Source: an uncultured Prevotellaceae bacterium (GTDB lineage Bacteria > Bacteroidota > Bacteroidia > Bacteroidales > Muribaculaceae). Taken from it: a stretch of DNA of 64,000 nt. Under the pieces are notes generated by a model that made no database searches, was not told where the DNA came from, and worked only from the letters and a program-made list of their open reading frames with translations. The translations under genes were made by a program, and so were the position numbers. Shown in pieces: positions 1 through 64,000 of this stretch; position 1 is the first letter of the stretch; every line of letters starts with the position of its first letter. The stretch is taken from positions 1-64,000 of the forward strand of contig ONJS01000018.1 in NCBI GenBank assembly GCA_900318205.1. The letters are read 5' to 3'.

Positions 1-1129
1 AGTCGAGAAAGAAAGTGTAATACTCGATGAGGGTCTGCTGGCGCACCAAATCGGCTACAATAACGTCGGCGAACCTCTCGTAGGCAACAACCGAGGCGGA
101 TGAGCGTGTGGGATTAAGCGCCATCAGGTGGGCGGGCTGTACTTCCTGCGGGTTCCAGTTGGAGGGAATGAGGGAGTTACGCACGCCGAGCACGAACTGA
201 TTGAGGGCAGTGACATAGAACACCTGACAGTCGCTGTCGGTGCTCTTCTTGGGACTGGTTGACTGTGCCACCGTCGCCGTGGGGATGACGGCAGAGAACG
301 AGCGCACGGCATCGGTGCCAAGGCTGCCGATCTGCACAAACTCTCCAAGGCCGCTATCGGCACTCTGATTCCAGCGGTAGGTGTTGCCGGTGTCCTTGTG
401 GCAGTAGATGGTGCCAGGTTGAGGTGTGCCGATGTCAACAATCCCAACCTGTTCAACGCTGGTCTTCTTGAACAGCTTTCTATATGGCACGTTGTTGTTG
501 TTCAGTCCGTCTTCGAGGTAGATGGAGCCCACGGGAATGTCATCCCAGTTGTAAGTGTCCAGTTCGAGTGGCGAAATGGGCACGACGTTGTACAGCACAA
601 CCTCTGGCCACTGGCCGGGTGTAAGCCTCGACGACATTGCTTTGCCGTTAAGCAAGTCGGCCTTGTTGGTAATCGCCGTCTCAACTTGCGTCGCCTTGGT
701 CATCGCTGCAGATGCGTTCGACTCGGCGTTTTCGGCCTTGGAGTAGGCAGAGTTGATCTTATTAAACGTAGTGGCAGTAATGATACCAGCCTTCGTCGTT
801 GACGCAATCGGCAAAGTGGATGACACCACTGTTCCGCCTGCGTTAGTGACCTTCAGCGTCACAGTCGCACCGTCATCACTGGCCACAACGGACGCGCTCA
901 CCAGTTCCTTTGCATTGATGAGTGCCAACAGCCCTGATGTGTCCTGTGACGACGCGGCCTCAATGAGCTGGCGGAGCACATAGAACGTAATGCGCTTGCC
1001 GCCGGAGACCTCAAAAGAGTCGTTATCGTTCAAAGCGGTGACTGGCGTCAGCTGCGCTATGGTCTTGCTGTTGGTGGCAAGAGCCGAGAGTACCGCATTG
1101 ATAATCTCTTGTTTCTCTTCGCTTGTCAT
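1..1129 (-). CDS. Tail fibre protein, N-terminal part (cut by window edge)
   Basis: Open frame from ATG at 1129 down to base 2 with no stop, so 376 codons are visible and the C terminus lies outside the window. The product starts MTSEEKQEIINAVLSAL and has an Ala/Ser/Thr-rich helical stretch at about residues 125-155, typical of trimeric phage fibre stalks, followed by beta-rich repeats. It begins 4 nt after the upstream tail gene ends, so it is co-transcribed with the distal tail genes. If the genome is circular, its frame (codons starting at positions equal to 1 modulo 3) is exactly the frame of the truncated gene at the right edge, and the two could be one very large fibre. Fibre assignment comes from position and composition, not from a recognised domain. 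Confidence 0.7.
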   Translation of the reverse strand, partial: MTSEEKQEIINAVLSALATNSKTIAQLTPVTALNDNDSFEVSGGKRITFYVLRQLIEAASSQDTSGLLALINAKELVSASVVASDDGATVTLKVTNAGGTVVSSTLPIASTTKAGIITATTFNKINSAYSKAENAESNASAAMTKATQVETAITNKADLLNGKAMSSRLTPGQWPEVVLYNVVPISPLELDTYNWDDIPVGSIYLEDGLNNNNVPYRKLFKKTSVEQVGIVDIGTPQPGTIYCHKDTGNTYRWNQSADSGLGEFVQIGSLGTDAVRSFSAVIPTATVAQSTSPKKSTDSDCQVFYVTALNQFVLGVRNSLIPSNWNPQEVQPAHLMALNPTRSSASVVAYERFADVIVADLVRQQTLIEYYTFFLD

Positions 1130-47776: not shown

Positions 47777-47816
47777 AGTCAGTGTCGCTTTGGTTTGGTT
47801 TGACTTACGGAGTGGG

Positions 47817-48359: not shown

Positions 48360-48421
48360 CAAAGGTAGGTCGTTTGACCTAATTAACCAAACAAAAAACG
48401 AAAAATTTTGGTCATTTGACC
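48360..48421. promoter_or_regulatory. Divergent lysogeny switch: leftward promoter and two operators
   Basis: Leftward promoter: TTTG (48388-48391 region, minus strand), about 20 bp, perfect -7 TACCTTTG (48360-48367). Operator 1 AGGTC-GTTT-GACCT (48367-48380) lies inside that spacer. Operator 2 TGGTC-ATTT-GACCT (48409-48422) overlaps a rightward TTTG-18-AACATTTG promoter for the repressor. A further rightward -7 TATATTTG is at 48329-48336. This layout lets the repressor at 48446 shut off the leftward early operon and control itself. Confidence 0.6.
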
Positions 48422-48445
48422 TATTTTTAACATTTGTTTTGAATT

Positions 48446-48841: not shown

Positions 48842-48842
48842 T

Positions 48843-49442: not shown

Positions 49443-49701
49443 ACCCACGCAATAATTACCGAATTATTGTCCCTCCGATTTCTCGAAACCTACGAAACAC
49501 CCATATTTTCAAGGCGTAGCAGCGATAATACCACAAATTTTTTTTAAGTTAGTAGGTGTTTTCACAATAAATCGCACAAATGCCGAACAATTCGGGAGTT
49601 TAGAGGTAATAATAATCGAGAAACCGTCCAGCGGTGGACCGCTGCGAATGTCAAAAAACAATCGATTAACTCATTTTATTACCGTTTTATTGTCGAAAAT
49701 C
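49443..49701 (+). other. Intergenic region upstream of the integrase
   Basis: No gene. Holds an A/T-rich inverted repeat CAATAATT-ACCG-AATTATTG (49450-49469), a T-rich run after a CCACAAATTTTTT sequence, and a tight palindrome CAGCGGT-GG-ACCGCTG (49629-49644) about 60 nt before the integrase ATG. Candidate places for attP, an integrase/excisionase arm site or an operator. The core attachment sequence cannot be recognised without the host junctions. Confidence 0.4.
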
Positions 49702-50877
49702 ATGGCAACTATAAGAACAGTCATCGTGCCTACTAAGGCACTCAAAGGAGGGCGTCACAAAGTCCGAATCTCAATCGCCCATAACGGCCAAACACGCTAC
49801 ATCCCAACCAATGTAATTATAGATAATGTACGCGAGTTCAAGAACGGACTCGTCGTTGGCAGGGGCGACGCGGCTTACATGAACACAAAATTGCGTAAAC
49901 TCGTCCAGCAGTACCAGAACGCAATCGACGAACTGGAGTACGTTGATGGACTCTCATGCCCCGAACTGGTCTATGCAATCACACACTCCGAGTTCAACCG
50001 CCACAAGACTTTCAAGGAAGTCTATGAGAAATATATGGAGGTGGCCAACATCACGGACGGCACGCGCAAAGGCTACAGGGGACACTACCGCTGCATTACG
50101 GCGTTCATGGAAGAGAACACCCTACTGGAGCGCATCAACCACCTCACGCTCGCAGGACTCAACAAATTCATGCTCGAACGCGGCTACACGGCAAACACCA
50201 GGCGTGACAAGCTCGTGTTCATTATGGTGCTTATCAACTTCGCCGAAAGGTGCCGATATGCCGTTCCTCAGTATAACCCATTCATCGGTTACGACCTGCC
50301 GGCTCAGGAGGTGAGGCAGTCATGGCTCTCGGTGGACGAGGTTCGCAGGATCCGCGACGCGGAATGCCCGAAACGCTCAGTGGAGATTTGCCGCGATGTG
50401 TTCATGTTGTCTTACTACCTGGGAGGCATCAACGTAGTTGACCTACTCTCGGTGGACTTCAACGAGTGCAAAAGGAATATCCATTACATCCGCTCAAAGA
50501 CAAAGAACAAACCGAAGCTGAACAAGTTCGTGGAGTTCGCTATCCCGGACGAGGCAAAGCCCATCATCGCCAAATATAAAGGCGGTGACGGCCGCCTCTT
50601 TTTCGGTGACTTCCACAACCGCAACAGACTTCATTACCTTTTCGTGGAGCACATGAAAAGCCTTGCCGAAATCGCAGGACTGAAATACCTGATTTTCTAT
50701 TCAGCACGCAAGTCGTTCGCACAGCACGCCTTCCAACTGGGAGTCAGCGAGAGCGTCGTGGACTACATCCTCGGACACCGCGTCGATAAGGTGAGTACAG
50801 CACTTTACAGCTATATTTCAGTCACCCCAAAGCAGGCGAGCGATGCCGTGAGGATGGTGCTTGACAATTTGAGGTAA
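49702..50877 (+). CDS. int: Tyrosine recombinase (phage integrase), 391 aa
   Basis: Start at ATG 49702 (MATIRTVIVPTKALKGGRHK). N-terminal arm-binding domain, SAM-like core-binding domain (FNRHKTFKEVYEKYMEVANI, about 110-130), catalytic domain with ARKSFAQHAFQLGVSESVVDYILGHR (Arg, His) and tyrosine in ALYSYISV. The usual first Arg position reads LGGINVVDLLSVDF, lacking Arg, as in IntDOT-type Bacteroidales recombinases. Catalyses integration and excision of the prophage. Confidence 0.9.
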   Translation: MATIRTVIVPTKALKGGRHKVRISIAHNGQTRYIPTNVIIDNVREFKNGLVVGRGDAAYMNTKLRKLVQQYQNAIDELEYVDGLSCPELVYAITHSEFNRHKTFKEVYEKYMEVANITDGTRKGYRGHYRCITAFMEENTLLERINHLTLAGLNKFMLERGYTANTRRDKLVFIMVLINFAERCRYAVPQYNPFIGYDLPAQEVRQSWLSVDEVRRIRDAECPKRSVEICRDVFMLSYYLGGINVVDLLSVDFNECKRNIHYIRSKTKNKPKLNKFVEFAIPDEAKPIIAKYKGGDGRLFFGDFHNRNRLHYLFVEHMKSLAEIAGLKYLIFYSARKSFAQHAFQLGVSESVVDYILGHRVDKVSTALYSYISVTPKQASDAVRMVLDNLR

Positions 50878-51011
50878 AAAATTTCGGCTCAAGCTATTGC
50901 GCAGTCGGAAAATATGCCTACCTTTGCCGTATCAATATTGCTGCACTTTCATAAGTTCAGTTTATATTGGTTTGACTTACGGAGCGGGCGGGTGGTTCCC
51001 CCGCTCCAAAT
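50878..51011 (-). other. Non-coding region with orphan leader element
   Basis: The leader element CCGTAAGTCAAACCAATATAA (rc of 50960-50979) is followed by ATG at 50952, but only a 6-codon frame (MKVQQY) follows, so it may be the remnant of a lost gene or the 5' end of an RNA. No other gene seen. Confidence 0.35.
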
Positions 51012-51042
51012 TTTGCCAGTTCATTGAAATAGCATAACTTTG
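51012..51042 (+). promoter_or_regulatory. Perfect Bacteroidetes promoter for a structured RNA
   Basis: TTTG (51012-51015), exactly 19 bp, TAACTTTG (51035-51042): both elements match consensus. The predicted start lies at about 51046-51049, which is the first base of the 15-bp closing stem of the RNA downstream. Confidence 0.75.
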
Positions 51043-51045
51043 CAA

Positions 51046-51186
51046 GGCAATCAAAACCAAGCGGGGGAGGCTCCCGTCTTTTTGGCCTCCCCCTTGGAAT
51101 TAAATCTTAACGATTATCGTTAGCTTTAATTTCCAAATCCTAATCGAAAATCTGACTTCCATAGGTGCTTGGTTTTGATTGTTTTG
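51046..51186 (+). ncRNA. Structured non-coding RNA, about 140 nt
   Basis: 15-bp perfect closing stem (51048-51062 with 51167-51181), hairpin GGGGGAGGC/GCCTCCCCC with a 13-nt loop (51063-51093), and a long A/T-rich hairpin TTGGAATTAAA/TTTAATTTCCAA enclosing TAACGAT-T-ATCGTTA (51094-51136). The remaining 30 nt (51137-51166) are unpaired. TTTTG follows the closing stem, giving a terminator-like end. No reading frame. The reverse complement folds similarly, but the promoter favours the plus strand. No known RNA family recognised. Confidence 0.65.
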
Positions 51187-51239
51187 CTTTCACTTTAGGG
51201 GGTCTGCTTGCCCTTTGTAAACACTCATTGTTTACATTA

Positions 51240-51271
51240 CAAATTTCGGGACGATTTTATACCCCACCAAA
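51240..51271 (-). promoter_or_regulatory. Leftward promoter facing the structured RNA
   Basis: Minus strand TTTG (51268-51271), 20 bp, GAAATTTG (51240-51247), near copy of the promoter at 4926-4956 with flanking A/T tracts. It would transcribe antisense through the RNA gene at 51046-51186. Confidence 0.55.
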
Positions 51272-51299
51272 TTTTTTCACAAAAAAATCACTATTTTTT

Positions 51300-51542
51300 C
51301 AAACTTTTTTCACTGAATTTCAACCCGTTAAATAATGGGCGCATCCGTCATGGACACGCCCAAAACGAGCGTCCCTCATCATCACTTTTCATCATCACGG
51401 AACGCCCGCTCTTATTACTCACGAAAGGTGGAAAAGTTCAAAAAAGTGGCCACGTTTCACAACGCAGCCACCTAAGTATAACTCATATTATTACCCCATG
51501 TTCGGTAAAATTGTAGTCAACTAATAACTAAACAAATCACAT
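51300..51542. other. Intergenic region with several hairpins, no gene
   Basis: Between the integrase side and the lysis operon. Besides the terminator at 51440-51471, it holds GGGCG..CGCCC (about 51330-51360) and GCGTTCC..GGGACGC (about 51375-51405) stems on the minus strand, each followed by T-containing sequence, and a repeated ATCATCACTT. Together these look like a tandem terminator array. Confidence 0.45.
51440..51471 (-). terminator. Strong terminator of the lysis operon
   Basis: 11-bp stem (51446-51456 with 51461-51471, two G-T pairs) closed by a GTGA loop and followed on the minus strand by TTTTTT at 51440-51445. Confidence 0.85.
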
Positions 51543-52163
51543 TCAGAATATCTTCCATTTCGCCTTCGCTCCGATAAACGGCTCGAAGTTGTTAGTTACC
51601 TCAGACTTCTTGACGCCTCCTTCTATGCCCAGCTGCAGACGTTTGTCATTGTTGATCGTCAGCTCGCCACTGGCATAGGGCTGCCAAAACTTGGATGTGG
51701 TTCCGTAATCAATACCGGCATTGACAGACAACGACCATTTATTGGGAGGCTTCATTCTCGTTATCGTCTCGGTAATCAGCTGCGTCTCATTATAGACGAA
51801 GATGCTGTCCAGGGAAGGCTCGAACCCGCTGACATACGCATCGTAGTTCTTCCCGCCGTAGTGCTTAGATGTGATTGGCACCTCCACCGCTACGCTGTCA
51901 TGCAGCGTCAGGTATTCCACACTGGTGACGGTGTCGCTCTTGAACAACGGCAGCCATTTGATGACCGTCTTGGTCAAGAAACTGTCCTTCGGTGCGGGAA
52001 GATACTCGGGAACCGTGTCGTGAAGCGTTACGGTGTCACGTGAGACACTTTCGTCCAGGGGACGGTCGTACATACCTTTCGCAACCAAAAAGCCGCACAG
52101 GAGGCACAGGATGGCCGATGCAGCAAAGATAATGAGATGTTTCTTGCTTACCTTGTTAACCAT
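51543..52163 (-). CDS. Membrane-anchored lysis-region protein, 206 aa
   Basis: N-terminal transmembrane anchor (LIIFAASAILCLLCGFLVAKG), a central linker with repeated DTVTLHDTVPEYL-type motifs, and a beta-rich C terminus (WSLSVNAGIDYGTTSKFWQPYASGEL) resembling an outer-membrane beta-structure. Last gene of the lysis operon. A spanin-like bridge between membranes would fit its position and topology, but no spanin motif can be shown. Confidence 0.6.
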   Translation of the reverse strand: MVNKVSKKHLIIFAASAILCLLCGFLVAKGMYDRPLDESVSRDTVTLHDTVPEYLPAPKDSFLTKTVIKWLPLFKSDTVTSVEYLTLHDSVAVEVPITSKHYGGKNYDAYVSGFEPSLDSIFVYNETQLITETITRMKPPNKWSLSVNAGIDYGTTSKFWQPYASGELTINNDKRLQLGIEGGVKKSEVTNNFEPFIGAKAKWKIF

Positions 52164-52176
52164 AACATTGACAGTA

Positions 52177-52347
52177 TTAAAATGAATTGTATTGCGACGT
52201 TAAGAGATGATGCACAAACACTGTGGCAATGGCCAGAATAGCAATGCCCGCACACACGATGAAGATGATTAGACCCGCGTTCACCCTCGCACGATCTCTG
52301 CGCATCTGCCTGTTCATCTTCTCGTCGATGCTCAACTTCCTGCTCAT
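52177..52347 (-). CDS. Small membrane protein of the lysis operon, 56 aa
   Basis: ATG 52347 (MSRKLSIDEKMNRQMRRDRA) to TAA at 52177, starting in ATGA overlap with the amidase stop. Charged N terminus and one transmembrane segment (GLIIFIVCAGIAILAIATVFV). Possibly an auxiliary holin or spanin component. Confidence 0.65.
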   Translation of the reverse strand: MSRKLSIDEKMNRQMRRDRARVNAGLIIFIVCAGIAILAIATVFVHHLLTSQYNSF

Positions 52348-52982
52348 AACCCTGCGTATTCTTTTTTAGCGTCAAAGCATGGACAATCTTTTTTTGCAAA
52401 TTCCCGGTGGCCGTGGATGGTGGCATTGGGGTACATGCGCTTCAGATCCCTCAGTAACTTCAGCAGGCCGTCCTTTTGCGCCTGCGTGCGCGTGTCCTTT
52501 GGTGGCAGCTTGCTATACGGCACGTTAGGGATATTCTTCAGACCTCCGACATAGCAGACTCCAATGCTGTGCGGATTGTGGTTTTTGCAGTGGGCACCAC
52601 TTACGTTGATGTTGCGTCCAGCGTGAACAGAGCCGTCAAGATAGATAACGAAATGATATCCGATGTCGCTGAAACCCCTCTCCTTGATGTGCATTTTCCT
52701 GATTTGCTCAACTGTCATCGGGACACCCTCAGGCGATGCGGTACAATGTACGATAATCTCCGTGATGGTGCGTTTTGACTTTAGGTTGAGTTGCCCACCA
52801 AGTCCAAGGGCATCCCAAGTCTTACTGCCCACGATGCCGTCGGCAACAAGTCCGTACTTCTTTTGGAACTGCTTAACGGCCTCCTCGGTCAATGGACCGA
52901 AAATGCCGTCCTCGTACAGATGCAAAGCACGCTGGAGCTGCTTGACATCTTCGCCCTTACTTCCCTTTCTCAAAGTCCTCAT
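52344..52982 (-). CDS. Endolysin: N-acetylmuramoyl-L-alanine amidase with peptidoglycan-binding domain, 212 aa
   Basis: Residues 1-62 are a PG_binding_1 domain (DVKQLQRALHLYEDGIFGPLTEEAVKQFQKKYGLVADGIVG). The rest is an Amidase_2 zinc enzyme: EIIVHCTASPEG with the first zinc His, DIGYHFVIYLDG, and HGHREFAKKDCPCFD with the zinc His and Cys. Cleaves the amide between MurNAc and L-alanine for host lysis. No signal peptide, so it relies on the holin. Starts inside the holin's 3' end. Confidence 0.92.
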   Translation of the reverse strand: MRTLRKGSKGEDVKQLQRALHLYEDGIFGPLTEEAVKQFQKKYGLVADGIVGSKTWDALGLGGQLNLKSKRTITEIIVHCTASPEGVPMTVEQIRKMHIKERGFSDIGYHFVIYLDGSVHAGRNINVSGAHCKNHNPHSIGVCYVGGLKNIPNVPYSKLPPKDTRTQAQKDGLLKLLRDLKRMYPNATIHGHREFAKKDCPCFDAKKEYAGL

Positions 52983-53496
52983 AGTTGTTCTCCTTTCTTA
53001 TCCTCTTTACTGGTTTCTTTTTGAAGTCGTGCAGGTTGACATCGAAATGCCTCTCGGTCTTATCGACCATGATTTTTTGCAGCACCTTGTAAAAGTGGCC
53101 GTCCTCCTCACTGCGGCAACTGCTCTCGTTTTCGAGGATAGACCAAAGCTGTTCAAAGCAGATAACACCAGTGGCCACATAGGACAGCGGGATTGCCACA
53201 TGGATGAACACCCAATGCTCGAGCAGGTAAGCCAGGAAGATGAGCGTCAACCGCTTCGGGATGGTGTGACGTATCACCTTACCGAAAGCGAATGAGGTAA
53301 ACTTCGCCTCGTGCCTCTTCGTCTCATCAGGATATTTGACGTGCACGCGCTTATCGAGTTGGTAAGCGGTGAATGCGTCGTACAAAATGAACACGATAGC
53401 AACAATGACCAGCGGGAATGCTGGCTGAAACTCTTCGACCAACCAACCAACCGCACCACCTATTAAGGCAAATATCAACTTCGGAATATTACACAT
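52957..53496 (-). CDS. Holin-like membrane protein, 179 aa
   Basis: Start at ATG 53496 with AGGAGG 7 nt upstream. Hydrophobic segments at LIFALIGGAVGWLV, PLVIVAIVFILYDAFTAY and LTLIFLAYLLEHWVFIHVAIPLSYVATGVI, then a basic soluble tail. Matches the toxin-secretion/phage lysis holin type common in Bacteroidales phages. Directly precedes the endolysin. Confidence 0.75.
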   Translation of the reverse strand: MCNIPKLIFALIGGAVGWLVEEFQPAFPLVIVAIVFILYDAFTAYQLDKRVHVKYPDETKRHEAKFTSFAFGKVIRHTIPKRLTLIFLAYLLEHWVFIHVAIPLSYVATGVICFEQLWSILENESSCRSEEDGHFYKVLQKIMVDKTERHFDVNLHDFKKKPVKRIRKENNYEDFEKGK

Positions 53497-53507
53497 GGCA
53501 AACCCTC

Positions 53508-53741
53508 CTATAACAGCCATAGCAGGCAACCGACGGCAACACCAACGGAAACGCCTATCTCATTGTCGCGGATGTCACCCCAGTCCCAACGATTGCCGGG
53601 CTCGCGGCTATCATCCCACTCTTTCACAAAGCCCATCAGTGACGGGACCAATAAACACACCGTGACAGAAAACCAAAGCGGCTGATGGAATATGCGGTAG
53701 GTCACCATGAGCACGAAACCCATAGCGCAACAACATCCCAT
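53508..53741 (-). CDS. Small membrane protein, YfiM/DUF2279-like, 77 aa
   Basis: Start chosen at ATG 53741 because an ATG at 53762 would sit only 4 nt from the late promoter -7 element. Two or three hydrophobic segments and the motif GFVKEWDD..RWDWGDIRDNEIG, which resembles YfiM-type small proteins found beside phage lysis genes. No lipobox. Confidence 0.6.
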   Translation of the reverse strand: MGCCCAMGFVLMVTYRIFHQPLWFSVTVCLLVPSLMGFVKEWDDSREPGNRWDWGDIRDNEIGVSVGVAVGCLLWLL

Positions 53742-53766
53742 GTGCAAATATCTGTCAACCATACCC

Positions 53767-53818
53767 CAAAATTAGGGACGGTCTTACCCACGGCAAGCGA
53801 TTTCCTGAAATCTCAAAA
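53767..53818 (-). promoter_or_regulatory. Late promoter, copy c (lysis genes)
   Basis: Minus strand: box 53794-53818 (core TTTTGAGATTTCAGGAAATC), 19 bp, perfect TAATTTTG at 53767-53774. Drives the small membrane protein, holin and endolysin. Confidence 0.7.
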
Positions 53819-53870
53819 TCGGAAATCGCGTAAAATAGTAAGTAATAAGGATTTGCGGATTTTGCTATTT

Positions 53871-54323
53871 TTATAGCAGGGCAAAAATGACATTGGAGAA
53901 TATCCCCAACTCTATCCACCACATCCAGCGCTTGTGGTTGATGGCGGCAATCAGGAAAGAGGCGGCCAACGGCAGTAGCTGGGCGCCGTTGAAGATGAGC
54001 CATGCCACCGATGCAGCACCCATGACGATGGCGGCTCCGTAATGGATGCGGCTCACCCATGAGTCTCGGAACTGCGGCGACGCGGCAACGAAAAGCACGG
54101 AGGCACAAGCAAGGAAGGCACAGAACTCCAGCTGGCCGGCACTCACCCACGGCACAAACAGCAAGATGCCCACGGCGGCAAGGGTGGCACTGAACGTCCA
54201 CCGCCTGCCGACGTGGTAATAGGTCTCGCTGATGCTCTCGGGGACACCGTGCCTAACAATATACATGGCAAGGTAGAGAACCAGCACGACAGCCGCCGCT
54301 ATGACGCTACAACTCAATAACAT
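53871..54323 (-). CDS. Multi-spanning membrane protein, 150 aa
   Basis: Start at ATG 54323 (MLLSCSVIAAAVVLVLYLAMYIV). Five to six predicted transmembrane helices. Overlaps the upstream DUF4376-like gene by 17 nt. No family recognised. In the lysis operon, so possibly a pinholin/antiholin-type or inner-membrane protein. Confidence 0.65.
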   Translation of the reverse strand: MLLSCSVIAAAVVLVLYLAMYIVRHGVPESISETYYHVGRRWTFSATLAAVGILLFVPWVSAGQLEFCAFLACASVLFVAASPQFRDSWVSRIHYGAAIVMGAASVAWLIFNGAQLLPLAASFLIAAINHKRWMWWIELGIFSNVIFALL

Positions 54324-54816
54324 TTTCGTAGCAACTCCAATCGACGCTGTCCTTCTCCATCCATCCGCGCTGGTAGGTGGCCTGAATGAACTGGATGGCT
54401 TGCAGGTAGAAGCTCTGAAGTTCTTCCAACGTGGTAAACTCATGGTAGGTTGGCTCCTCTGCAGTACCAAACTTGAACGTTACAGGAAGTACGCCCTGGC
54501 CGTTCATCTGCACGGCGAGGTCATAGATAGCCTTGTAGTTCGTTTGGTTCTCAAGCGACAGCCAAACCCTATATTGCGTGCCATCAACGGCAGTCCACAC
54601 AAAACCGCTAAGGATGGTCTCGTCAACATCCTCGTTGATGGCGCTGATGATCATCTCCTTGATTTCATCAAGCGTGGGCCTGTATTCGACAGTTCCACGG
54701 AACTGCCATTTGCCATTCTCATCTTCACCGAAGCCGTAAAACACCTCGTGACGGCGTACTCCTATCTTCTGGATGCCGTCAAAACGCTCTATTGCGCCGT
54801 AACATTTCTGCATCAT
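54307..54816 (-). CDS. DUF4376-like tail fibre assembly protein, 169 aa
   Basis: Pattern LDEIKEMIISAINEDVDETILSGFVWT-VDGTQYRVWLSLENQTNYKAIYDLAVQ (about 48-105) resembles DUF4376-type phage tail-fibre assembly proteins. Two ATGs in tandem at the start. First gene of the transcript from late promoter copy d, directly after the reverse transcriptase. It may be a folding factor for the giant receptor-binding protein. By-eye family call. Confidence 0.6.
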   Translation of the reverse strand: MMQKCYGAIERFDGIQKIGVRRHEVFYGFGEDENGKWQFRGTVEYRPTLDEIKEMIISAINEDVDETILSGFVWTAVDGTQYRVWLSLENQTNYKAIYDLAVQMNGQGVLPVTFKFGTAEEPTYHEFTTLEELQSFYLQAIQFIQATYQRGWMEKDSVDWSCYENVIEL

Positions 54817-54838
54817 AATCGAAAAATTTAAGTTTGCA

Positions 54839-54890
54839 CAAAGTTACGGAGAGTTTTTCAAGAGCCAATCGTTTTACTGAAATCTCAAAA
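54839..54890 (-). promoter_or_regulatory. Late promoter, copy d (fibre assembly and membrane protein)
   Basis: Minus strand: box 54866-54890 (core TTTTGAGATTTCAGTAAAAC), 19 bp, perfect TAACTTTG at 54839-54846, ATG 22 nt downstream. Box starts 1 nt after the reverse transcriptase stop codon. Confidence 0.7.
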
Positions 54891-54891
54891 T

Positions 54892-56190
54892 CTATGAAAA
54901 CTTGTATTTGACTTTGTTGCCGTCGAAAACCTCACTGACTATGGTTGTTTCAAAAGGAAATCCGTTCTCCATTTCCCTGATCTGGTCGAGGATGTTTTTC
55001 ATTTCCTCCGAAGCGGTAAAGAACTTGCCCCACTCTTTTGTGGCAGGGTCGAGGAAACTCACGATGTAGCGATCCTCTCCCTGGCTCGTTTTTATTCCGC
55101 TCTCGTAGTCGTGTACTTCAATAACTTTATTGACGATGGCTCCAAGGCGCATCATCTTGCCGGGGAAACGCTTCTTTCCATCGGCAGGCGTGTATGTCAC
55201 GCCCATCTCGCTAAACTTTTTCATTTTCTTTCCTGTTAATGTCTCGTATAGATGGTTACAGTCTCCATGTATAGCCATGCCCTTAAACGATCCAATGAGG
55301 GCAACACGCCGCTTCCTGGACTTCACCTTGGCCATGTGGCGGGCGAATTTCTTCTTGGTGCGCTTCCTTACCAGCGAATGGGTTCCGAAACTGATATAGC
55401 CGAGGAAGTCTATACCCTCACTCACGGGGCGCACGCACTCGTTAGGCTTTATCTCCAGCCCAAGTGCGGCGAGCTGGTCTTTCAGCATGTCGCGCCAGAT
55501 CCACAACTGCCGCTTGTCGCCGTGAAGCATGACAATGTCATCGCAGTAGCGGTAGTAATAGCGCACGCGAGCCACTTCCTTCATGGAGTGGTCCACGCTG
55601 TCAAGTATGATGTTTCCGAAGCACTGAGACGAACGCAGACCTATGATAATGCCATTCGGCGTCACGCGGATGAAGTTCTCAAGTATCGGCAACAGGGTTT
55701 TGTCCTTGATGTAACGGCACACGACATCGTACATCAAGTCTTGGTCGATGCTCTCAAAGAATTTCTTGATGTCACACTTGTAATAATACCTGGTGCCCTC
55801 AGGGTCGTTCCTGATGTCACGGGTGAGGATATTGTGCAGGTAGTGCATACCCCTGCCCTTGATGGATGCGGCACTTGTGGGTATCTGCGACCTGTAGCAC
55901 ACCTCATCCACGATATTCATGATGGCGTGGCACCCTATGCGCTGGATGACTGGCGGAGCCTGTACAGTCCTTATCTTGGGACCGTCAGTGACGAGCATCT
56001 CATGCAGGGCCGTGATACGAAAAGAGCCGTCTCGGATGGCGGCCATCAGTCGTTCGATGATTTGGTCCTTACGAGCACGGAGTATTTCTTTGCGGTACTT
56101 GTTCTTCAAGTCGCTAATCACGTCATCGAAGCTGACGCTCATGTTGCCCGGCTCGATGATCCGTTCTATCAAGTTGCCAAATCTCTTCAT
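54892..56190 (-). CDS. DGR reverse transcriptase, 432 aa
   Basis: Copies the template RNA into mutagenic cDNA for DGR retrohoming. Motifs: RYYYKCDIKKFFESID (motif 3/A region), GIIIGLRSSQCFGNIIL (motif 4; the SQ ending is typical of DGR enzymes), YYYRYCDDIVMLHGDKRQL with the catalytic YCDD (motif 5), LGLEIKPNECVRPVSEGIDFLGY (motifs 6-7). A C-terminal extension of about 130 residues follows. It lies directly after the template repeat; the target gene is just upstream on the same strand. Confidence 0.96.
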   Translation of the reverse strand: MKRFGNLIERIIEPGNMSVSFDDVISDLKNKYRKEILRARKDQIIERLMAAIRDGSFRITALHEMLVTDGPKIRTVQAPPVIQRIGCHAIMNIVDEVCYRSQIPTSAASIKGRGMHYLHNILTRDIRNDPEGTRYYYKCDIKKFFESIDQDLMYDVVCRYIKDKTLLPILENFIRVTPNGIIIGLRSSQCFGNIILDSVDHSMKEVARVRYYYRYCDDIVMLHGDKRQLWIWRDMLKDQLAALGLEIKPNECVRPVSEGIDFLGYISFGTHSLVRKRTKKKFARHMAKVKSRKRRVALIGSFKGMAIHGDCNHLYETLTGKKMKKFSEMGVTYTPADGKKRFPGKMMRLGAIVNKVIEVHDYESGIKTSQGEDRYIVSFLDPATKEWGKFFTASEEMKNILDQIREMENGFPFETTIVSEVFDGNKVKYKFS

Positions 56191-56377
56191 CTTTGCCTTC
56201 AGGCGTGTGGCTCATCACTTCCGCTTTCGCTACTCACAATATGCCACAATTTCTTTTGTTCCGGTCTTCTGGAGGAAATTAACTTCCATCGTAGGTTTGC
56301 CGAGGCTCATGTCCCTCGCTCATGCAGTTGCGACACGTCGCGGTTGTAGAGGAACGATTGTTACCCATAGAGGGATG

Positions 56378-56500
56378 CCTTGAATTTAAGCCGAGCACCG
56401 TTGTTGCTGTTCGTGTTCGACGAAGCGCGGTTCGCATTAACGTAGGCGAGACCGCCGTTCGCGTTCGTATTGTTGCCGCCGCGAGACACAACCCGGCCTA
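56378..56500 (-). repeat. DGR template repeat (TR)
   Basis: A 122-nt block 291 bp away from, and aligned without gaps to, the 3' end of the giant receptor gene. All 17 mismatches fall where the coding-strand TR has A: ten A-to-G and three A-to-T within 56401-56480, the rest near the 3' end (three in one AAA codon). No mismatch is at C, G or T. This is the signature of adenine-specific DGR mutagenesis. The alignment ends at 56500 in the 5' direction. Confidence 0.95.
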
Positions 56501-56601
56501 CGTTGGGACAATCCACCTTTCGGGAGGCAAAATTACACAATCCGACGAAAAAAACAAGCAGAGGACTCCAAAAAAGTCCTCCACCTGTTTTCATTTCGGG
56601 A

Positions 56602-56630
56602 GAGTGAGCAGCCGCAAGCGGCTCTCACTC
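56602..56630. repeat. DGR-type hairpin downstream of the variable repeat
   Basis: GAGTGAG-AGCCGC-TT-GCGGCT-(G)-CTCACTC, 13 bp with one bulge, located between the receptor gene stop and the template repeat. Hairpin/cruciform elements at this place are known to help DGR retrohoming. Confidence 0.7.
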
Positions 56631-56648
56631 TACGCTTTTTCGAGCACG

Positions 56649-59600
56649 TCAACGCTCAACGATAACGCCCCTGAAGGCAAGCCGAGCACCGCTGTAGCCG
56701 TACGCGCTCGACGAAGCGCGGTTCGCACCAACGTAGGCGAGACCGCCGTCCGCGCTCGCATAGCTGCCGCCGCGAGACACAACCCGGCCTGTTGATGCGC
56801 TGTACTCTTGCTGGTCACAATAGTAGGTATTATAGCTGCTGTTATCAACCAGCTTACTCGGAACCATGTCGCAGTAACGGCCCCAGCGAACGCGGGCAAT
56901 CTCGGTTGAACCAGATACGCCGCGCACCGCACGTTCGCTTTTGGCGACTGGATCATAGACACGCCAGATGTTGTCAACGCTGCTACCAGAAGGCACGGAG
57001 CACCTATTGCGATAGTAGGCAGCGATGCTGCTGACATTCACTGCAACATTGTCCACCCAACACCATCCGTTACCCCATGGATCCTCAATGCCGAGGCTCC
57101 TGCGGCTTCCGTCGCCGAGATGGATGGAGTCACTGCCGCCGGTGGCGGTGTTGAAACCAGCGGCACCGATGACCGCACCGATATGTCTGCGGCCGTGCAC
57201 CGCCATCCACAAGATAGCGAATATCTTGTGCTGTTCGTAGTCGATGAGCTGGTAGCCTTTCCCTCGCATCTTGGCGACATTGCGGAAGTCAATCCAGCTC
57301 CACTTCGTCACGGTGGACGAGTCACTGTTCACGATATCAAGTTCGCCGTCGCTGTCATACACCCAACCAGTAGCGGCACCATCCGAATTAGTTCCCCACC
57401 TGATGCCTTTGCCACTTAGTGAGCGAAGCACGGGAATGGTCTTTTGTGTGCCGCCGACAGTGACGGTCTTGGTGATGTTGGCGGCAAAATAGGTGCCAAC
57501 TAACGAAGGCTCATTCTCGACCCAGTCGGGCTCGATGGCCTCGATGGCCGTGCTGTCAACACCGATGCAGCCGACACTGGCACTTGCAAGTGCCGTGAAC
57601 ACAAACCACTTGGCACCGGCCGGAACGCTGGTAAACAGGTAATCACCAGCAACGTAGTCGTTGTTGGCGTTTGTGATGTTGGCAACAAGCTTGCTGATGA
57701 CTTTTCCGTCAGCGTCCAGGAATAGGCATGCCAATGCACTGCTGCTCACACCTGGCCAGCGTACCTGCTTCATGCCCTCGACATCAAAGCGGCAAGTGTT
57801 GTAGGATACATTACTCGTCAGATTTTCAACATCAAACACGTCACCGACGGCGAAGTCATCACTTACAACGCTCTTCGAGGCTTCAAGGATGATGTCAGAC
57901 GCCGCGGCCCGGCGTACGGTGGTGGCTGAACTGCGTGGCATATCATCGTCTGCGGATAGGAACAGATACTTGCGCTGATTGAGGTGGTCGTTTATGCCCT
58001 TGTACCAGAAATGCGGCAGCTTTGTCATGATGTCGTATCCGAGTCCGTCGCTATCAGTCCTATCGAGATAGTCGCCGCTCTTCAGATAGTTGATGTCGCT
58101 GTCGTCTATCTGCTCGGCCTGCATGTAGGCCTCATCATTGCCGCTGGCGGGAACGAAGGTGCACTTGTAGCTGTGGATCTTCGACTTGATGAGGCTTATA
58201 TGGCCGCTCGGAGTGTACTTGTTGTTGCCGTTGACACCGCTCGTGCCGTTCTCCAGGTTGGTCATGTTGGCATCGTCGGTCATTGTGTCGTCAAAGACCA
58301 TTCCAGTGTACTGTGCGTTATACACGTCCAACTCGGGGAAGTAACGCTTGATGTTAGCCAGTACGGCGGTGTCAATGTAGTCACTCATCACCCACACACC
58401 CGTCAAGCCAGAGCACTGCCCAATCTCGGAGTATGCGGTACCATCGGCGGCAAGGCCAGTCACACCCATAGCCATCAGGGCAAGCAGCGTGGCGCTGGGC
58501 CCGGTGACGTTGATGTCTGCAAGCCTCAACTTGCCGATATTGGCACCAGCATTCACGATGTCGGCCAACAGCTGGGCGCCGTCAATCAGTGGACAGCCGC
58601 CAATCATCAGCTTGGTCACGGCAGACATGCCTCCGTCGAAGCTGAGGCCACCAGGGTAACTCAACTTGGGAAGGTTGACCATCGTCAAGTCTGTAACAGT
58701 GGATGGCAGCGACAAAGAGCTCACAGGCGAGGTCTCTGCAAGCGACAGGTTAGTCAACTGCGATCCCTCGGCAAGCAACATCTCCAGTCGCGGGCAACGG
58801 CTGGCATTTACGTTGGTGATTACGGTGTCCCTGATGTCGAGGTGCTTCAGGAACGGCAGCTCGCCGAGGTTGAGGTTGCGCAACGCACCGTAAGAACCGA
58901 TGCCCATGGTGGTGTGGCCTTCTCCACCAATCTCTATCTTCTCGGCCAGTGTAAACACGTTGAAGTTGGCCACATCACTCAACGAAATTTCGTTGAAATT
59001 GATTTCTGAGATGCGGTCACACTGGTAGATATAGAGCAGAGCGCCCTCAATGCTTGTGCCGTCGGTGCGGTTAAAGCCAGTGAATGTGTGGCTATCTCCT
59101 GCCTCCAGGTAAACGCTCTCCTTCAGGTCACCAGAGCTGTCAATACCGAGACCGAAATAACCAGTCTTTGCAGCCTTAATGGTGATGCCTGCACCGGTGG
59201 CGCAGTTGATACGCGCACTGAACACGCCAGTGAAGAAAAGGCCAGTGCGATAGTAGCCGTCACGGAAGCGGAAGCGAGTGTTGATAATGGCGGGGATGCT
59301 CGTCAACCTCAGACCGTGGAGTGCATAGAAGTAGATGGCATCAGCCGTGGGCGTGAAGCTGATGAATTTGCGCTCACCATCATACGAGCTCACGGTCTTC
59401 TGCCACTTGTAGCAAATCATATCCATAAAGAAGTGCATTGCACCCTCTGGACTGAACGGGGCCATCGTCAGCCCGTCAAATGTCGACTGGGCCGAACGCA
59501 GGGCCGCGATGACGGTCTGCATAGAAATCTCTGCTCCAGCATCGTCCAAGACAACAGGCTGCTGATAGATATTGTTCCACAAGATGGAGCCGTAGCCCGC

Positions 59601-62600
59601 ATAGGGGTTATTGTAACCAGTGGCTATATCGGTGGGCTTGTTGGGATCTACCTCGGGGTCAACGGTGGCACCGCCGTCGTTGTCCTTACCAAGCAGACCA
59701 TCGGCATCATAGATCTTGTTGGGGTACATAATCAGCGCAGGCTGGTAGCCGCTAAAGGTCTGGTTGCACCACGAATTCTGATACACGCCATTGATGACGC
59801 TCTGACCCTCGTCGAGGAAGAACATTGGCTGCATGTTCTTTGCCTGCTGGTCGACGGCCAACAGGTAGTCGGTGAAACCGTCATAGACCATCAGTGCCCT
59901 CGGGTTGGCAAAGTAGCGCAGGTGGTTGTACCAGACGCTCTTGAAGCCCGATACCTTGGTATAGTCGCACGAGTTGCAGAAGCGCAGGAAGGCGTACAGG
60001 TTATAGGGCACCTTCTTGCCCATGGCGAGGTCTATCTGCAGCTGGTCGTTGTCAACCATGCACTCAAAGAACTGCGTCCATGCGGGATAAGGTCCGGTGA
60101 CTTCGCCTGACGCCTCAAGCTTCTGCACCCACGACGCGGAAGTCTCGACGGGCGCCATCATGTCGGCTATGCTTGATACGCCCATGAACCAGTCCATGCC
60201 GGTGTAGGCCAACAGCTCATAGCCGTCCACGGGATTAAGCACGTCACCAGCGATCACCCAGTTACCGTTCACCTGTCGCATCGTGCCTGTCGTGTCCACC
60301 CACGCGCCGTTCTGCCAGCGCATGAACTTGTATGACGACCCGCAATACATGGACAGCAGTACGGGGTGGTTCTGGTCGAAATCGGACGGGTCTTCGGAAA
60401 GGAAGCGGGTCTTAACCTTCTCGATAGTGTTGTCCTCAGGCAGACCGAAATACTCGGTAAAGCTCTCGTCCTGGTAGTTCAAACAGCCGAGGTTATAGCC
60501 CGGGGTGTCCTTAAAACCGAGGGCCACCTGCTCGCCTTTGTCCTCCTTCCAGTTTCCCTTGGCGTAGAAGTAGATATTCGCTCCCGTACCGTCCGGGTCG
60601 CGGAACATGGCAATGGGATGGTTGGCAGTCGAATGGTTCAACTGCAAGCCCGTCAACACAATGTCATTAAGCGTGTAGGTGCCGTTAAAGAAACGCTGAG
60701 CGGGTGTAAGGAACTTGCCGCCCAATGCACGATATGCCGCGTTCATCATGTTGCAGGCACCACAGTCGTTGGCGTTGGTGCTGTCGGAGAAGTCGACCTT
60801 GGTAGTGATGACATCCACTGGGATGGTATTCTCACCGACGCGGATCTTGTTCTTTGCAAACAGCGCTACGGCCTCGTCCCACAGCGAACCATCGTAACCC
60901 ATTGCGACAATCTCCTCACGCGTATGCAGCGGCTTGATGATGCAAACATCTTTGTAGGTTTCACCATCAACAACATACGTCGTCTTATTCTTGCTCTTGC
61001 GGGCAAGGTTGTAGCGGGCGTTCTTTATGGGACGCTTGGCCGATGTCGTGCCTTGATTGCGCTTGCGCACGTTGTAGGATATGAAGTCACGCCACGGACG
61101 TTTCGGGTCGCGGTAGGTCAGGTTGATAAACACTTGATCACTCGTTGATGTGGTGTTGTCAAGGCTCTCAATGTCACTGCCCTGGAAAGGCGACTCAATG
61201 AGGTATGACACATCACGCTCGGCCATTTTCGACATCGTGGGACCGTTAGCGGTATTGCCGCCCCACACGTCCTCGAACTCATACTCGGACATCATGGCGG
61301 TTGCTTCGGTCAACTTGACCAAGTAATTGTAGAACGACTGCTGCCAACCGACGTAGTTGTTCCACCCAATCAGGTAGTACAGGTAGAAGTCGCCATCCTC
61401 GCCTTTGAACTTGATGCTATTAGGCTGGATGAGGTTTGATCCGCTGGGCACATATCCCAGACATGCGGCCTCTTCACCGTTGAGATACAGCTTGATGAGC
61501 GAGTAGCGTGTGCCGTCCTTCTCAACATAGTTCGTGCCGGGCTCGACAACGATGCCCACCGTCACCTTCTCGCCGATAGGATAACGGCGCTCCTCCCTGT
61601 CGTGGTTACCAGTCTTGCATACGATGACCACGCTCTTGCCGTCAACATAGAAGCCTGCGCCAGCGGTGGGGTCGTAGCACTCCATGAGGCGCGTGGCATC
61701 ATTCTTGATGTTGTTGGCGGCGAACTGGAACAGAATGGCATAGCCGCTACTCTCGATGCCCGCATTTGAGAACGGGGCATCGTTCAGCTCAGCGGTCACA
61801 CCTTCCTTGATGGCAAGGGCATTCGCACCGAGGAAGTTGTTGAAGCCGTTCGACGACCAGTTTGAACCGGTCACGGCGATGTTGTAGCGGTCGTTTTGGC
61901 CGCTGACGATGCTGTGGTCTGCCTCGCTGTTGGTGCGGTTCGAGAAGTTGAAGTGGTAGTTTGCGCCCTCGGTCAATGCGGCATCAATGGCACTGCCACG
62001 GATGACAAGCACGACTCGGTTGCTCGCACCGTAGGCGCCGCAGTGAGCTCGGTAGGTCAGAGTGTCCTCATCGTTGCCGCTGGTAATCTGGCGAACGAAG
62101 GTAGCCACATTATTGCGAGCAATGCCGATGGAGTTGAGCGTCACGCCGTTCTCCTTGATGTCAACTGATGCGGTATAGTGTTGCGGGTCGTAGGCAGCAA
62201 TCTCAAGTATCACGCTGTCATAGCGGCGGATAAAGCCGTTGTTCTTGTCATTGTAGCGGATGGCCACGATGGGAGTATTGGTGCCAACAGCCACAACCAT
62301 TACAGACGAGTAGATGATGTTGCCTTTCACTCCGCTGGCAATGTCCGTGCCCTGGATGCGGATGGGATAACTGCCATGATACAGGATCTCGCCGCCACCG
62401 AAGGCATTGTTCGGGCTGATGCTGATGTTGTGGGCATAGGTGTCGGTGATAGTGGCCTCGCCAAGCGTGCGCCATGCGTTGTTGTAGAACAGCTCCACCT
62501 TGGCCAGGATGCTGCCCTGGTTGTTGGGGAACTTGTACATGGGCAGGGACTTCACATTGTCGGTGCGGAATACCACGCTGGCCTCGGTGTAGTTCAGCAC

Positions 62601-64000
62601 CTGGACGCTCTCGACGGTCACATCCACGGCAACCACGTTAATGGCTCGCTGGGCTGTCGCCCCGGAGGTGTCATAGGCGATGAGCTGCAGGCGACGTGTA
62701 GTCGCAGCGGTGAAGAAAGACGACAGGTCGAACACGAAGTCATAGGTGCTGCTGGTGGCCGACGATGCCTTGTTGAGACTGCGGTTTGAGTAGAGCACGG
62801 CACCTGAGTCACGGTCGATGATGTCAACGCGCTCGATAGTGTCGGTCATCTCGTTATTGCCGTCCATCGTCACGCTACGGATGGCTGCCCTCAGTACGAA
62901 GGAACCTCCAGCTGCGGCGTAGAACGGCGACTGCTCGAAGTTGATGGCAAATGTCTTGGTCGTTCCGCTGCCACTGCCGCCGCCCTTGGGGATGGCGAAA
63001 GGCAGGAAGTCGGGGACGCGGTTGCCATCAACGTTTACCAGCACAAAGTAGTAGTTGTTCTCGTTGTCTGCATTCTCGACGAGCTGCTCGGCCTCTTCGA
63101 CGGAGAGCATCTCCATCCCCTTTGCAAGGTGGTTGTATGCGCCACCGGTAGAGAAGGCGTCCTCGCCATTATCCTCGGGATCGTCGCTCGTTTCCACTTG
63201 CTCCTCGTTTCCTCCACCGCCGAAGTCCTTCCACAAGTCAGCGACGCCAAAGTCGCTCACGTTGCCGTTGAACTGCTTGGTCTCCCAGAGATTGTCGCCA
63301 ATCTGATATGTAATGACAAGTCCTGACTTCTTATATGTGATGCCAGTGGCAGACTCCTTCGCTGTGATAGCTGCGATGGCATATTGGAGCGTATAGTACT
63401 GGGACTGCGTGCAGTTGCCGCATAGCTTGACCACGTTGATGATGGCCTCGTCGCCTGCGGCAAGTCCTGCCATATCTACCCAGTTTTCCTGGTTGGTGAA
63501 ATTGTTCTCGGTGGTGTCACTGCCGATGTACTGGTAGGTCTTCCAAGTGCTCTCGCCGACCTCGAAGGTAATCTGCATGCCAGTGGCGGCAAGACCCTTT
63601 GCGTAGGTGGCGGAGATAGCCGTGCCGAGGTTGTAGTAGCCCTGGGTGGGCACCTCGTTGGTGACGTTGTAGCAGTTGCCAACGGATGCGCTGCCGCCGA
63701 ACTCCTTCCAGTCGTCGACGTTGCTCCAGTTCGTGCCCTTCCACTGGTAGGACTTCAACCCGTTTGCGGTGCTCAGGGTGATGACCACGCCCTTTTGGCG
63801 CACGTAGTCGTAGCCGTTGCCTGAGGTGAGCGACACGAACTGCGACAGGCTGACGTTCTCGCTCTGCTTGCTCGTGAGGACGTTGCCGTTAAAGAACAGG
63901 CGTGCCTCAAGGGCGGGGTCAGAGATGGCGGTCAGTGACGATATATCGGTATTGTAGTAATACGACACGTCATTGGACGTGCAGATGTAGAGCTTGTTGC
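56649..64000 (-). CDS. Giant receptor-binding protein, DGR target (N terminus cut by window edge)
   Basis: The frame is open to the window end; a GTG at 63968 is not a convincing start because codons upstream continue (NKLYICTSND). At least 2450 aa. In order: three beta repeats ending in W-x-x-FGG type motifs (first 260 residues), an Ig-like region, a LamG/ConA-like lectin domain (about 640-860), a large central region, leucine-rich repeats (about 1750-1900), and a C-terminal C-type-lectin/FGE-like fold ending GRVVSRGGSYASADGGLAYV. The variable repeat codes the last 40 residues, so the ligand-binding surface is diversified. It is the host-adhesion protein. Confidence 0.9.
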   Translation of the reverse strand, partial: NKLYICTSNDVSYYYNTDISSLTAISDPALEARLFFNGNVLTSKQSENVSLSQFVSLTSGNGYDYVRQKGVVITLSTANGLKSYQWKGTNWSNVDDWKEFGGSASVGNCYNVTNEVPTQGYYNLGTAISATYAKGLAATGMQITFEVGESTWKTYQYIGSDTTENNFTNQENWVDMAGLAAGDEAIINVVKLCGNCTQSQYYTLQYAIAAITAKESATGITYKKSGLVITYQIGDNLWETKQFNGNVSDFGVADLWKDFGGGGNEEQVETSDDPEDNGEDAFSTGGAYNHLAKGMEMLSVEEAEQLVENADNENNYYFVLVNVDGNRVPDFLPFAIPKGGGSGSGTTKTFAINFEQSPFYAAAGGSFVLRAAIRSVTMDGNNEMTDTIERVDIIDRDSGAVLYSNRSLNKASSATSSTYDFVFDLSSFFTAATTRRLQLIAYDTSGATAQRAINVVAVDVTVESVQVLNYTEASVVFRTDNVKSLPMYKFPNNQGSILAKVELFYNNAWRTLGEATITDTYAHNISISPNNAFGGGEILYHGSYPIRIQGTDIASGVKGNIIYSSVMVVAVGTNTPIVAIRYNDKNNGFIRRYDSVILEIAAYDPQHYTASVDIKENGVTLNSIGIARNNVATFVRQITSGNDEDTLTYRAHCGAYGASNRVVLVIRGSAIDAALTEGANYHFNFSNRTNSEADHSIVSGQNDRYNIAVTGSNWSSNGFNNFLGANALAIKEGVTAELNDAPFSNAGIESSGYAILFQFAANNIKNDATRLMECYDPTAGAGFYVDGKSVVIVCKTGNHDREERRYPIGEKVTVGIVVEPGTNYVEKDGTRYSLIKLYLNGEEAACLGYVPSGSNLIQPNSIKFKGEDGDFYLYYLIGWNNYVGWQQSFYNYLVKLTEATAMMSEYEFEDVWGGNTANGPTMSKMAERDVSYLIESPFQGSDIESLDNTTSTSDQVFINLTYRDPKRPWRDFISYNVRKRNQGTTSAKRPIKNARYNLARKSKNKTTYVVDGETYKDVCIIKPLHTREEIVAMGYDGSLWDEAVALFAKNKIRVGENTIPVDVITTKVDFSDSTNANDCGACNMMNAAYRALGGKFLTPAQRFFNGTYTLNDIVLTGLQLNHSTANHPIAMFRDPDGTGANIYFYAKGNWKEDKGEQVALGFKDTPGYNLGCLNYQDESFTEYFGLPEDNTIEKVKTRFLSEDPSDFDQNHPVLLSMYCGSSYKFMRWQNGAWVDTTGTMRQVNGNWVIAGDVLNPVDGYELLAYTGMDWFMGVSSIADMMAPVETSASWVQKLEASGEVTGPYPAWTQFFECMVDNDQLQIDLAMGKKVPYNLYAFLRFCNSCDYTKVSGFKSVWYNHLRYFANPRALMVYDGFTDYLLAVDQQAKNMQPMFFLDEGQSVINGVYQNSWCNQTFSGYQPALIMYPNKIYDADGLLGKDNDGGATVDPEVDPNKPTDIATGYNNPYAGYGSILWNNIYQQPVVLDDAGAEISMQTVIAALRSAQSTFDGLTMAPFSPEGAMHFFMDMICYKWQKTVSSYDGERKFISFTPTADAIYFYALHGLRLTSIPAIINTRFRFRDGYYRTGLFFTGVFSARINCATGAGITIKAAKTGYFGLGIDSSGDLKESVYLEAGDSHTFTGFNRTDGTSIEGALLYIYQCDRISEINFNEISLSDVANFNVFTLAEKIEIGGEGHTTMGIGSYGALRNLNLGELPFLKHLDIRDTVITNVNASRCPRLEMLLAEGSQLTNLSLAETSPVSSLSLPSTVTDLTMVNLPKLSYPGGLSFDGGMSAVTKLMIGGCPLIDGAQLLADIVNAGANIGKLRLADINVTGPSATLLALMAMGVTGLAADGTAYSEIGQCSGLTGVWVMSDYIDTAVLANIKRYFPELDVYNAQYTGMVFDDTMTDDANMTNLENGTSGVNGNNKYTPSGHISLIKSKIHSYKCTFVPASGNDEAYMQAEQIDDSDINYLKSGDYLDRTDSDGLGYDIMTKLPHFWYKGINDHLNQRKYLFLSADDDMPRSSATTVRRAAASDIILEASKSVVSDDFAVGDVFDVENLTSNVSYNTCRFDVEGMKQVRWPGVSSSALACLFLDADGKVISKLVANITNANNDYVAGDYLFTSVPAGAKWFVFTALASASVGCIGVDSTAIEAIEPDWVENEPSLVGTYFAANITKTVTVGGTQKTIPVLRSLSGKGIRWGTNSDGAATGWVYDSDGELDIVNSDSSTVTKWSWIDFRNVAKMRGKGYQLIDYEQHKIFAILWMAVHGRRHIGAVIGAAGFNTATGGSDSIHLGDGSRRSLGIEDPWGNGWCWVDNVAVNVSSIAAYYRNRCSVPSGSSVDNIWRVYDPVAKSERAVRGVSGSTEIARVRWGRYCDMVPSKLVDNSSYNTYYCDQQEYSASTGRVVSRGGSYASADGGLAYVGANRASSSAYGYSGARLAFRGVIVER
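56669..56791 (-). repeat. DGR variable repeat (VR)
   Basis: Inside the last 48 codons of the receptor gene. Codons that are AAC/AAT/AAA in the template appear as Ser, Tyr, Ala, Asp, Gly and others. For example, template-encoded NNT-NAN corresponds to SYA-SAD. The flanking conserved blocks RVVSRGG and GGLAYV are unchanged. Confidence 0.95.

Follow-up and report, generated by a model that had tools for sequence, protein, structure and literature searches.

Two described systems lie closest to the element considered here. In the diversity-generating retroelement (DGR) of Bordetella phage BPP-1 (AY029185), the gene for the target protein Mtd, which carries the variable repeat (VR), is followed by avd, a template repeat (TR), a spacer and brt, the gene for a reverse transcriptase (RT) of 328 aa. 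The spacer, which matches the Rfam family Phage_DGR (104.7 bits), folds, recruits bRT-Avd and primes cDNA synthesis, and the system fails when Avd is missing (PMC12875486). The second system is that of the hankyphages, whose DGR activity has been measured in culture (PMC12135933); DGRs in phages of gut Bacteroidetes have been widely catalogued (PMC8144416). The present work concerns a 64,000-nucleotide stretch of DNA (the window), positions 1 to 64,000 of contig ONJS01000018.1 from an uncultured Prevotellaceae bacterium. It is highly probable that this stretch carries a DGR related to the hankyphage one, in a tailed, integrase-bearing phage of a Bacteroidales bacterium, and that the element works in the manner proposed below. 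DGRs as a class and the hankyphage DGR are already known; what is useful here is the tie of a provisionally named Rfam family, RT-3, to the DGR machine.

The likeness to hankyphage p00 (Bacteroides phage p00, BK010646) extends over the whole locus. Both have the order VR, TR, RT-3 RNA, RT (the RT-3 of p00, which places this RNA in Bacteroides phages also, scores 146.6 bits), the two RTs share 49% identity along the full 432 aa, a span that takes in the C-terminal domain, and in both a DUF4376 protein lies behind the RT. The p00 fibre is a distant relative of the window's (27% over the C-terminal half), and hankyphage has a Mu-like transposase (PMC6199706), whereas the phage in the window has an integrase (phrog_1).

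Read along the minus strand, the locus in the window begins with a fibre gene whose 3' end holds VR and continues with an intergenic stretch, TR, a spacer and the RT gene (Table 1), which is the order of target-VR, TR, spacer and RT seen in BPP-1, whose RT is related. An earlier note on this DNA, made from its letters, had claimed a 122-nt template repeat and a variable repeat that differ at template adenines only, and both claims hold: the two copies form a direct repeat of 122 nt with 86% identity, and each of the 17 mismatches among the 122 positions lies at an A of TR on the minus strand (A to G, 12; A to T, 3; A to C, 2; hypergeometric P = 4.7e-13 for 17 of 17 mismatches on 30 A among 122 bases). 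The statement in the same note that 13 of 24 core adenines differ refers to a core that was never defined there; over the whole repeat 17 of the 30 template adenines, which lie mostly within AAC/AAT codons, are changed in VR, and 14 amino acids are altered. From the end of VR to the end of the fibre stop codon there are 20 nt, and the adenine changes, checked against an initiation of mutagenic homology (IMH) block of the BPP-1 type, extend to 2 nt from the repeat end. Apart from VR, the 3.6-Mb genome assembly holds no further copy of TR; the 17 nt that match on a different contig are at chance level.

The RT gene is an unbroken open reading frame (ORF) with intact active-site and motif residues, YCDD and IGLRSSQ, as had been read from the letters; DGR RTs are marked by the motif [IVL]GxxxSQ alongside YxDD. 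When a profile of 20 RT relatives was compared with the PDB, the top match was the BPP-1 DGR RT (98.4 bits; next, 47.9), and Foldseek with an AlphaFold model of the RT (mean predicted local distance difference test score, pLDDT, 76; predicted template modelling score, pTM, 0.59) again gave this enzyme as the best match (E 4e-17). The window's RT is 28% identical to BPP-1 brt across 321 positions. Together, the TR/VR pattern, the RT family and the RT fold bear out the identification of the element as a DGR. It is vanishingly improbable that the repeats instead represent an ordinary, drifted duplication of the fibre 3' end beside a retron or group II intron RT. Group II and defence RTs do appear among the NCBIfam matches and could speak for such an origin, but each match lies so far below its cut-off that this identity was rejected; the duplication is refuted in effect by the confinement of all 17 changes to A, by the BPP-1 DGR RT as top PDB match, and by A-biased repeat pairs at 26 of 29 loci in one set and 19 of 24 in another.

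Diversification is observed between sister phages that carry related elements (loci are denoted L and genomes G). In six sister pairs with identical TR and differing VR (L007/L008, L012/L013, L015/L017, L022/L084, L069/L073 and L074/L075; L016/L017 repeats L015/L017 and was left uncounted), the VRs disagree in 85 of 173 cases at template-A sites and in 1 of 533 at all other sites. Upstream flanks of 300 nt, compared in the five pairs other than L012/L013, are identical in L007/L008 and L074/L075, 98% alike in L022/L084 and L069/L073, and 90% alike in L015/L017. TR and VR are both identical in three pairs (L015/L016, L019/L020, L080/L081), and ten pairs with TR 93-98% alike show differences at 11-17 A sites and 2-9 others. 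Because sister VRs differ at template-A sites while TR stays identical, these comparisons indicate that the DGR lineage is active. The note's word "active" is thus borne out for sister phages of related DGRs; the window's own phage is a single sequence, and 101 genomes of its genus yielded no close sister.

This last circumstance could be taken to mean that the DGR was once active and is now silent in the window's phage, the 17 differences being old and the element either a relic or awaiting lytic growth. The single known sequence of the phage (L002 is identical to the window across the 19,106 bases compared) and the lack of any detected Avd homologue would fit such a history. We nevertheless regard it as quite unlikely, given that the RT frame and motifs are intact, that TR retains its 30 adenines, mostly within the codons named above, that sister phages with related RTs have diversified while their flanks are near-unchanged, and that hankyphages are active in culture (PMC12135933).

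The spacer between TR and RT matches Rfam RT-3, and the match ends 15 nt ahead of the RT start codon. At loci fetched by RT similarity, RT-3 is above threshold in 8 of 8, 7 of 11 and 7 of 7 cases in three sets (of 28 loci found via RT patterns, 23 were scanned, with L008, L016, L018, L020 and L029 left out). The association also appears when the RNA is the sole query. Of 297 genomes of the bacterial family, 19 carry RT-3, with 28 hits in total, of which 26 exceed the threshold (the window itself and two contigs already obtained otherwise are included), and at all 28 a related RT begins within ~92 nt downstream. At 23 of these hits an A-biased TR/VR pair (one with at least 75% of mismatches at A) lies within 1.5 kb, with the TR end 14-39 nt upstream of RT-3; at 4 more the partner repeat is ~26 kb off on the opposite strand, so that a second copy is known for 27 of 28, none having been found for the 28th, in genome G258. 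Across the phylum, 395 genomes, a sample that holds few genomes of the order, gave an RT-3 match in the window's own genome only. In Bacteroides phage BKO1-TP3 (PQ571269) and in the Bacteroidales contigs L003, L022 and L027, RT-3 likewise precedes a related RT (50-81% identical) and the fibre is related; BKO1-TP3 also has a DUF4376 gene behind the RT.

Because folding of the spacer alone and RNAalifold on a MAFFT alignment (a single 4-pair helix) were uninformative, an RT-3 hairpin was tested around a conserved loop near C-G-N-G. At the best placement per sequence, each of the 41 sequences keeps 3 or 4 of the 4 pairs, and 22 different arm pairs occur among them; over 38 sets 150 of 152 pairs are kept, versus 118.7 on average and at most 130 in 2000 re-optimised shuffles. 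In a second helix, CGGC/GCCG, both sides change at 3 of 4 pairs, and the helix is broken in some sequences. Eight additional covarying pairs have been reported for the RT-3 family after refolding (Rfam 15 paper, PMC11701678). The same slot between TR and RT is occupied in other DGRs (L019 9912-10000, L119-L121 and L122) by RT-17 and in one case by RT-14; when searched for by RNA, RT-17 (3 of 3 matches, one over threshold) and RT-14 (one match, under threshold) were found at DGRs with A-biased repeats.

RT-3 is very probably the RNA by which the DGR recruits its RT and primes cDNA synthesis, as judged from its position, 28 of 28 hits lying between a TR-like repeat and a related RT, and by analogy with BPP-1, where Phage_DGR fills the slot. 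A leader RNA that regulates RT expression in cis, with no part in making cDNA, would act at just such a place, 15 nt before the RT start codon. That role is unlikely for RT-3, which also follows closely on TR (a gap of 14-39 nt at 23 of the 28 hits), whose slot in BPP-1 is taken by a spacer that recruits bRT-Avd and primes cDNA (PMC12875486), and whose place in other DGRs is taken by RT-17 and one weak RT-14 match. In the literature searched, no link of RT-3 to DGRs was found; the paper defining the RT RNAs (10.1093/nar/gkx699), which lay outside that search, may already address it. The word retroelement is absent from the two papers naming RT-3 (PMC7657543, PMC11701678), a third, which mentions DGRs, cites the defining paper for other genes (PMC8143477), and a literature search by the name or accession of Phage_DGR returned no paper.

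Some relatives depart from the arrangement in the window. In four hankyphage-like loci, L063-L066, the second repeat (L099-L102) is the distant, opposite-strand copy ~26 kb from TR and RT mentioned above, and the view of L062-L066 as single-repeat elements was dropped for these four of the five. Compared with L062, the RT-adjacent repeat of L065 and L066 (G051, G097) is altered at 13 and 9 adenines, respectively, which looks as though a diversified copy had been written over the template. L006 (9700-9860) and L031 (BKO1-TP3, 5650-5780) have one merged repeat, unlike the separate TR and VR of the window: the fibre frame enters a TR-like repeat, RT-3 follows directly, and no second copy at 70% identity was found within the fetched stretches. 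The fibre end thus serves as the template itself, either through collapse by recombination or as a self-templating form.

The element is proposed to work as follows. Transcription from a promoter before TR would yield an RNA comprising TR, the RT-3 spacer and the message for the RT. The RT-3 RNA would fold, bind the RT and, like the spacer of BPP-1, supply the start of the cDNA at the 3' end of TR; the RT would then copy TR, misreading adenines, and the cDNA would replace VR in the fibre gene while the template is kept. Up to 16 codons of the fibre tip could vary in this way, of which 14 residues differ here. By analogy with other DGR phages, and from the position of VR, the phage may thereby switch receptors via its fibre tip and, as the earlier note proposed, reach new Bacteroidales receptors.

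The earlier note had called the DGR complete; TR, VR, RT and target are indeed present, and no avd was found. The bAvd profile, which recovers the control BPP-1 Avd, located between VR and TR, at 123 bits, has no hit on the window's contig, nor in the 18 searched records of relatives, several of which are fragments and four of which belong to DGRs without RT-3. A non-homologous substitute for Avd is possible. For hankyphage, a small ORF close to the RT has been compared to Avd on account of its isoelectric point and weight (PMC6199706). The host genome contains, away from the window's contig, a sub-threshold bAvd-like protein (25.8 bits; L033, G000:C30, 169710-170033), perhaps an unrelated protein of four helices, perhaps part of a different element.

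The window's RT, at 432 aa, has a C-terminal domain that the BPP-1 enzyme lacks. Residues 323-431 have no Pfam match; AlphaFold models residues 356-431 as b-b-b-a-b-b (three strands, a helix at 395-405, two strands), an arrangement that by strand order alone resembles an oligonucleotide/oligosaccharide-binding (OB) fold. In alignment A1, 48 of 112 positions in residues 321-432 are invariant versus 73 of 320 in the rest, a figure biased upwards because two of the six peptide patterns by which the RT relatives were found lie inside this domain. The RTs of L022 and L084 are 81% and 78% identical to the window's. Some of the work of Avd in BPP-1 may fall here to the C-terminal domain. A broader proposal holds that Bacteroidales phages use an Avd-free DGR in which RT-3 and the RT-fused OB-like domain recruit and prime, and that RT-3, RT-17 and RT-14, which appear in Rfam merely under the label 'RT' RNAs, are the DGR template-RNA cores of separate lineages; for this the case stands evenly balanced. 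An RT with a fused domain and no detected Avd possibly offers a simpler DGR system for study. The Rfam family in this slot changes from lineage to lineage, which points to a general layout made up of template, folded RNA and enzyme, and RT-3 itself gives a handle for RNA-based DGR finding and marks a stretch relevant to priming.

The target had been described as a giant fibre gene with VR in its last codons. VR does lie there, and the ORF proves to be incomplete within the window's end, continuing at the other end of the contig; because the frame crosses the contig ends into the second ORF, the whole fibre is reckoned at ~2,840 aa. In the relative L027 counterparts of both parts occur on one stretch in the same order. 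Residues 156-2437 match PHROG 14959, a family annotated as function unknown. The identification of the target as a tail fibre is supported by the giant ORF kept in relatives, the tailed-phage gene set and the name of the hankyphage counterpart, which is called tail fibre (PMC12135933). For the fibre end, a prediction of a C-type lectin fold had been made. The target domain of a DGR is expected to have a C-type lectin (or Ig-like) fold. The prediction was not confirmed: an AlphaFold model of the C-terminal end, from 16 sequences, has a pLDDT of only 34, the 16 members give nothing of weight against Pfam, a profile of the fibre end finds chance-level matches only among PDB sequences (best E 0.22), and no similarity to BPP-1 Mtd was found. 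The fibre end does resemble, at 98.5% by hhalign, the protein that bears VR in Phocaeicola phage PV4-TP1.

Between fibre and TR lie signals of transcription. A predicted Bacteroides-type promoter overlaps the T run of a terminator-like hairpin, and its second box begins 36 nt ahead of TR and fits TAnnTTTG, the Bacteroides promoter consensus. This element occurs in the 80 nt before TR at 29 of 43 loci (at 30-40 nt in 23 of the 29) versus 232 of 8162 random windows (2.8%), where the loci are related and the random windows come from the same loci with base composition unmatched. The count omits the near-identical L008, L016, L020 and L081, the non-RT-3 loci L019, L021 and L032, and the pairless L006, L014 and L031. 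Because a terminator-like hairpin follows the fibre gene and a promoter precedes TR, TR, RT-3 and RT probably form one transcript separate from that of the fibre. A stem-loop like that of BPP-1 behind VR was sought in the window and its relatives and was not convincing: across 38 loci the best hairpin after VR falls anywhere from +2 to +101 and beats 95% of shuffles at 13 of them, and AGCCGC..GCGGCT hairpins occur in six relatives at +65 to +101. The imperfect inverted repeat beyond VR in the window may be a terminator, or it may correspond to the stem-loop of BPP-1.

Several observations weigh against the interpretation of the window as a working DGR of the kind proposed. The phage is known from one sequence, with no close sister found; no Avd was found, whereas BPP-1 stops without Avd; and the BPP-1-type stem-loop directly behind VR is absent at that place. 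The window's RT-3 match is modest, with mismatched pairs, and its spacer alone folds no better than shuffles (z -0.01). Within the set of 11 loci, L019 carries RT-17 and L014, L021 and L032 are without RT-3 above threshold, though L014 reads much alike. In addition, the promoter element is missing from 14 of the 43 loci, and the lectin fold of the fibre end is not confirmed (failed model, null profile searches).

Table 1. Coordinates of the features of the DGR and its surroundings in the window.
Feature	Position	Strand	Remarks
Variable repeat (VR)	56669..56790	-	final codons of fibre; direct-repeat search
Template repeat (TR)	56378..56499	-	direct-repeat search
RT-3 RNA (Rfam RF03068)	56206..56359	-	structured spacer between TR and RT; 53.9 bits, gathering 40.5
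DGR-type reverse transcriptase	54892..56190	-	432 aa, intact ORF; Pfam RVT_1; PHROG 1423 over residues 1-421
RT C-terminal extension	54895..55224	-	residues 323-431, beyond the 328-aa BPP-1 enzyme; matches stand-alone family phrog_19665
Giant tail-fibre ORF	56649..63968	-	2439 aa from GTG in window; frame open to 63998 and over contig end
N-terminal part of fibre gene	2..1129	-	joined through circular contig ends; common frame
Inverted repeat, imperfect hairpin	56603..56629	-	starts 40 nt beyond VR
Terminator-like hairpin and T run	56548..56581	-	after fibre gene
Predicted Bacteroides-type promoter	56528..56558	-	before TR; CTTG - 19 nt - TAATTTTG; overlaps T run
DUF4376 protein	54307..54816	-	downstream of RT, as in hankyphage; no bAvd match

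The contig that carries the window is 64,153 bp long, and its ends overlap by 99 nt. Because overlaps of this kind are left by assemblers in circular contigs, it is read as a circular molecule, or as circularly permuted phage DNA, of ~64,054 bp; the circular assembly was opened inside the fibre gene. The 18 window proteins searched include PHROG matches to large terminase, portal, major head protein and tape measure, as well as to amidase/endolysin and integrase, and because of this set of structural genes, endolysin and integrase the phage is tailed and probably temperate; no transposase was found among these 18. The stretch 45000-64000 has no megablast match in phage records, and L022 and L024, contigs of Bacteroidales metagenome-assembled genomes, lie in genomes of the window's own genus. 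Behind the RT, a 54-nt direct repeat (74%; 53767-53820 and 54839-54892) is perhaps a shared regulatory element. ARAGORN reports a single odd tRNA-like gene at 45860-45932, with an anticodon of two bases.

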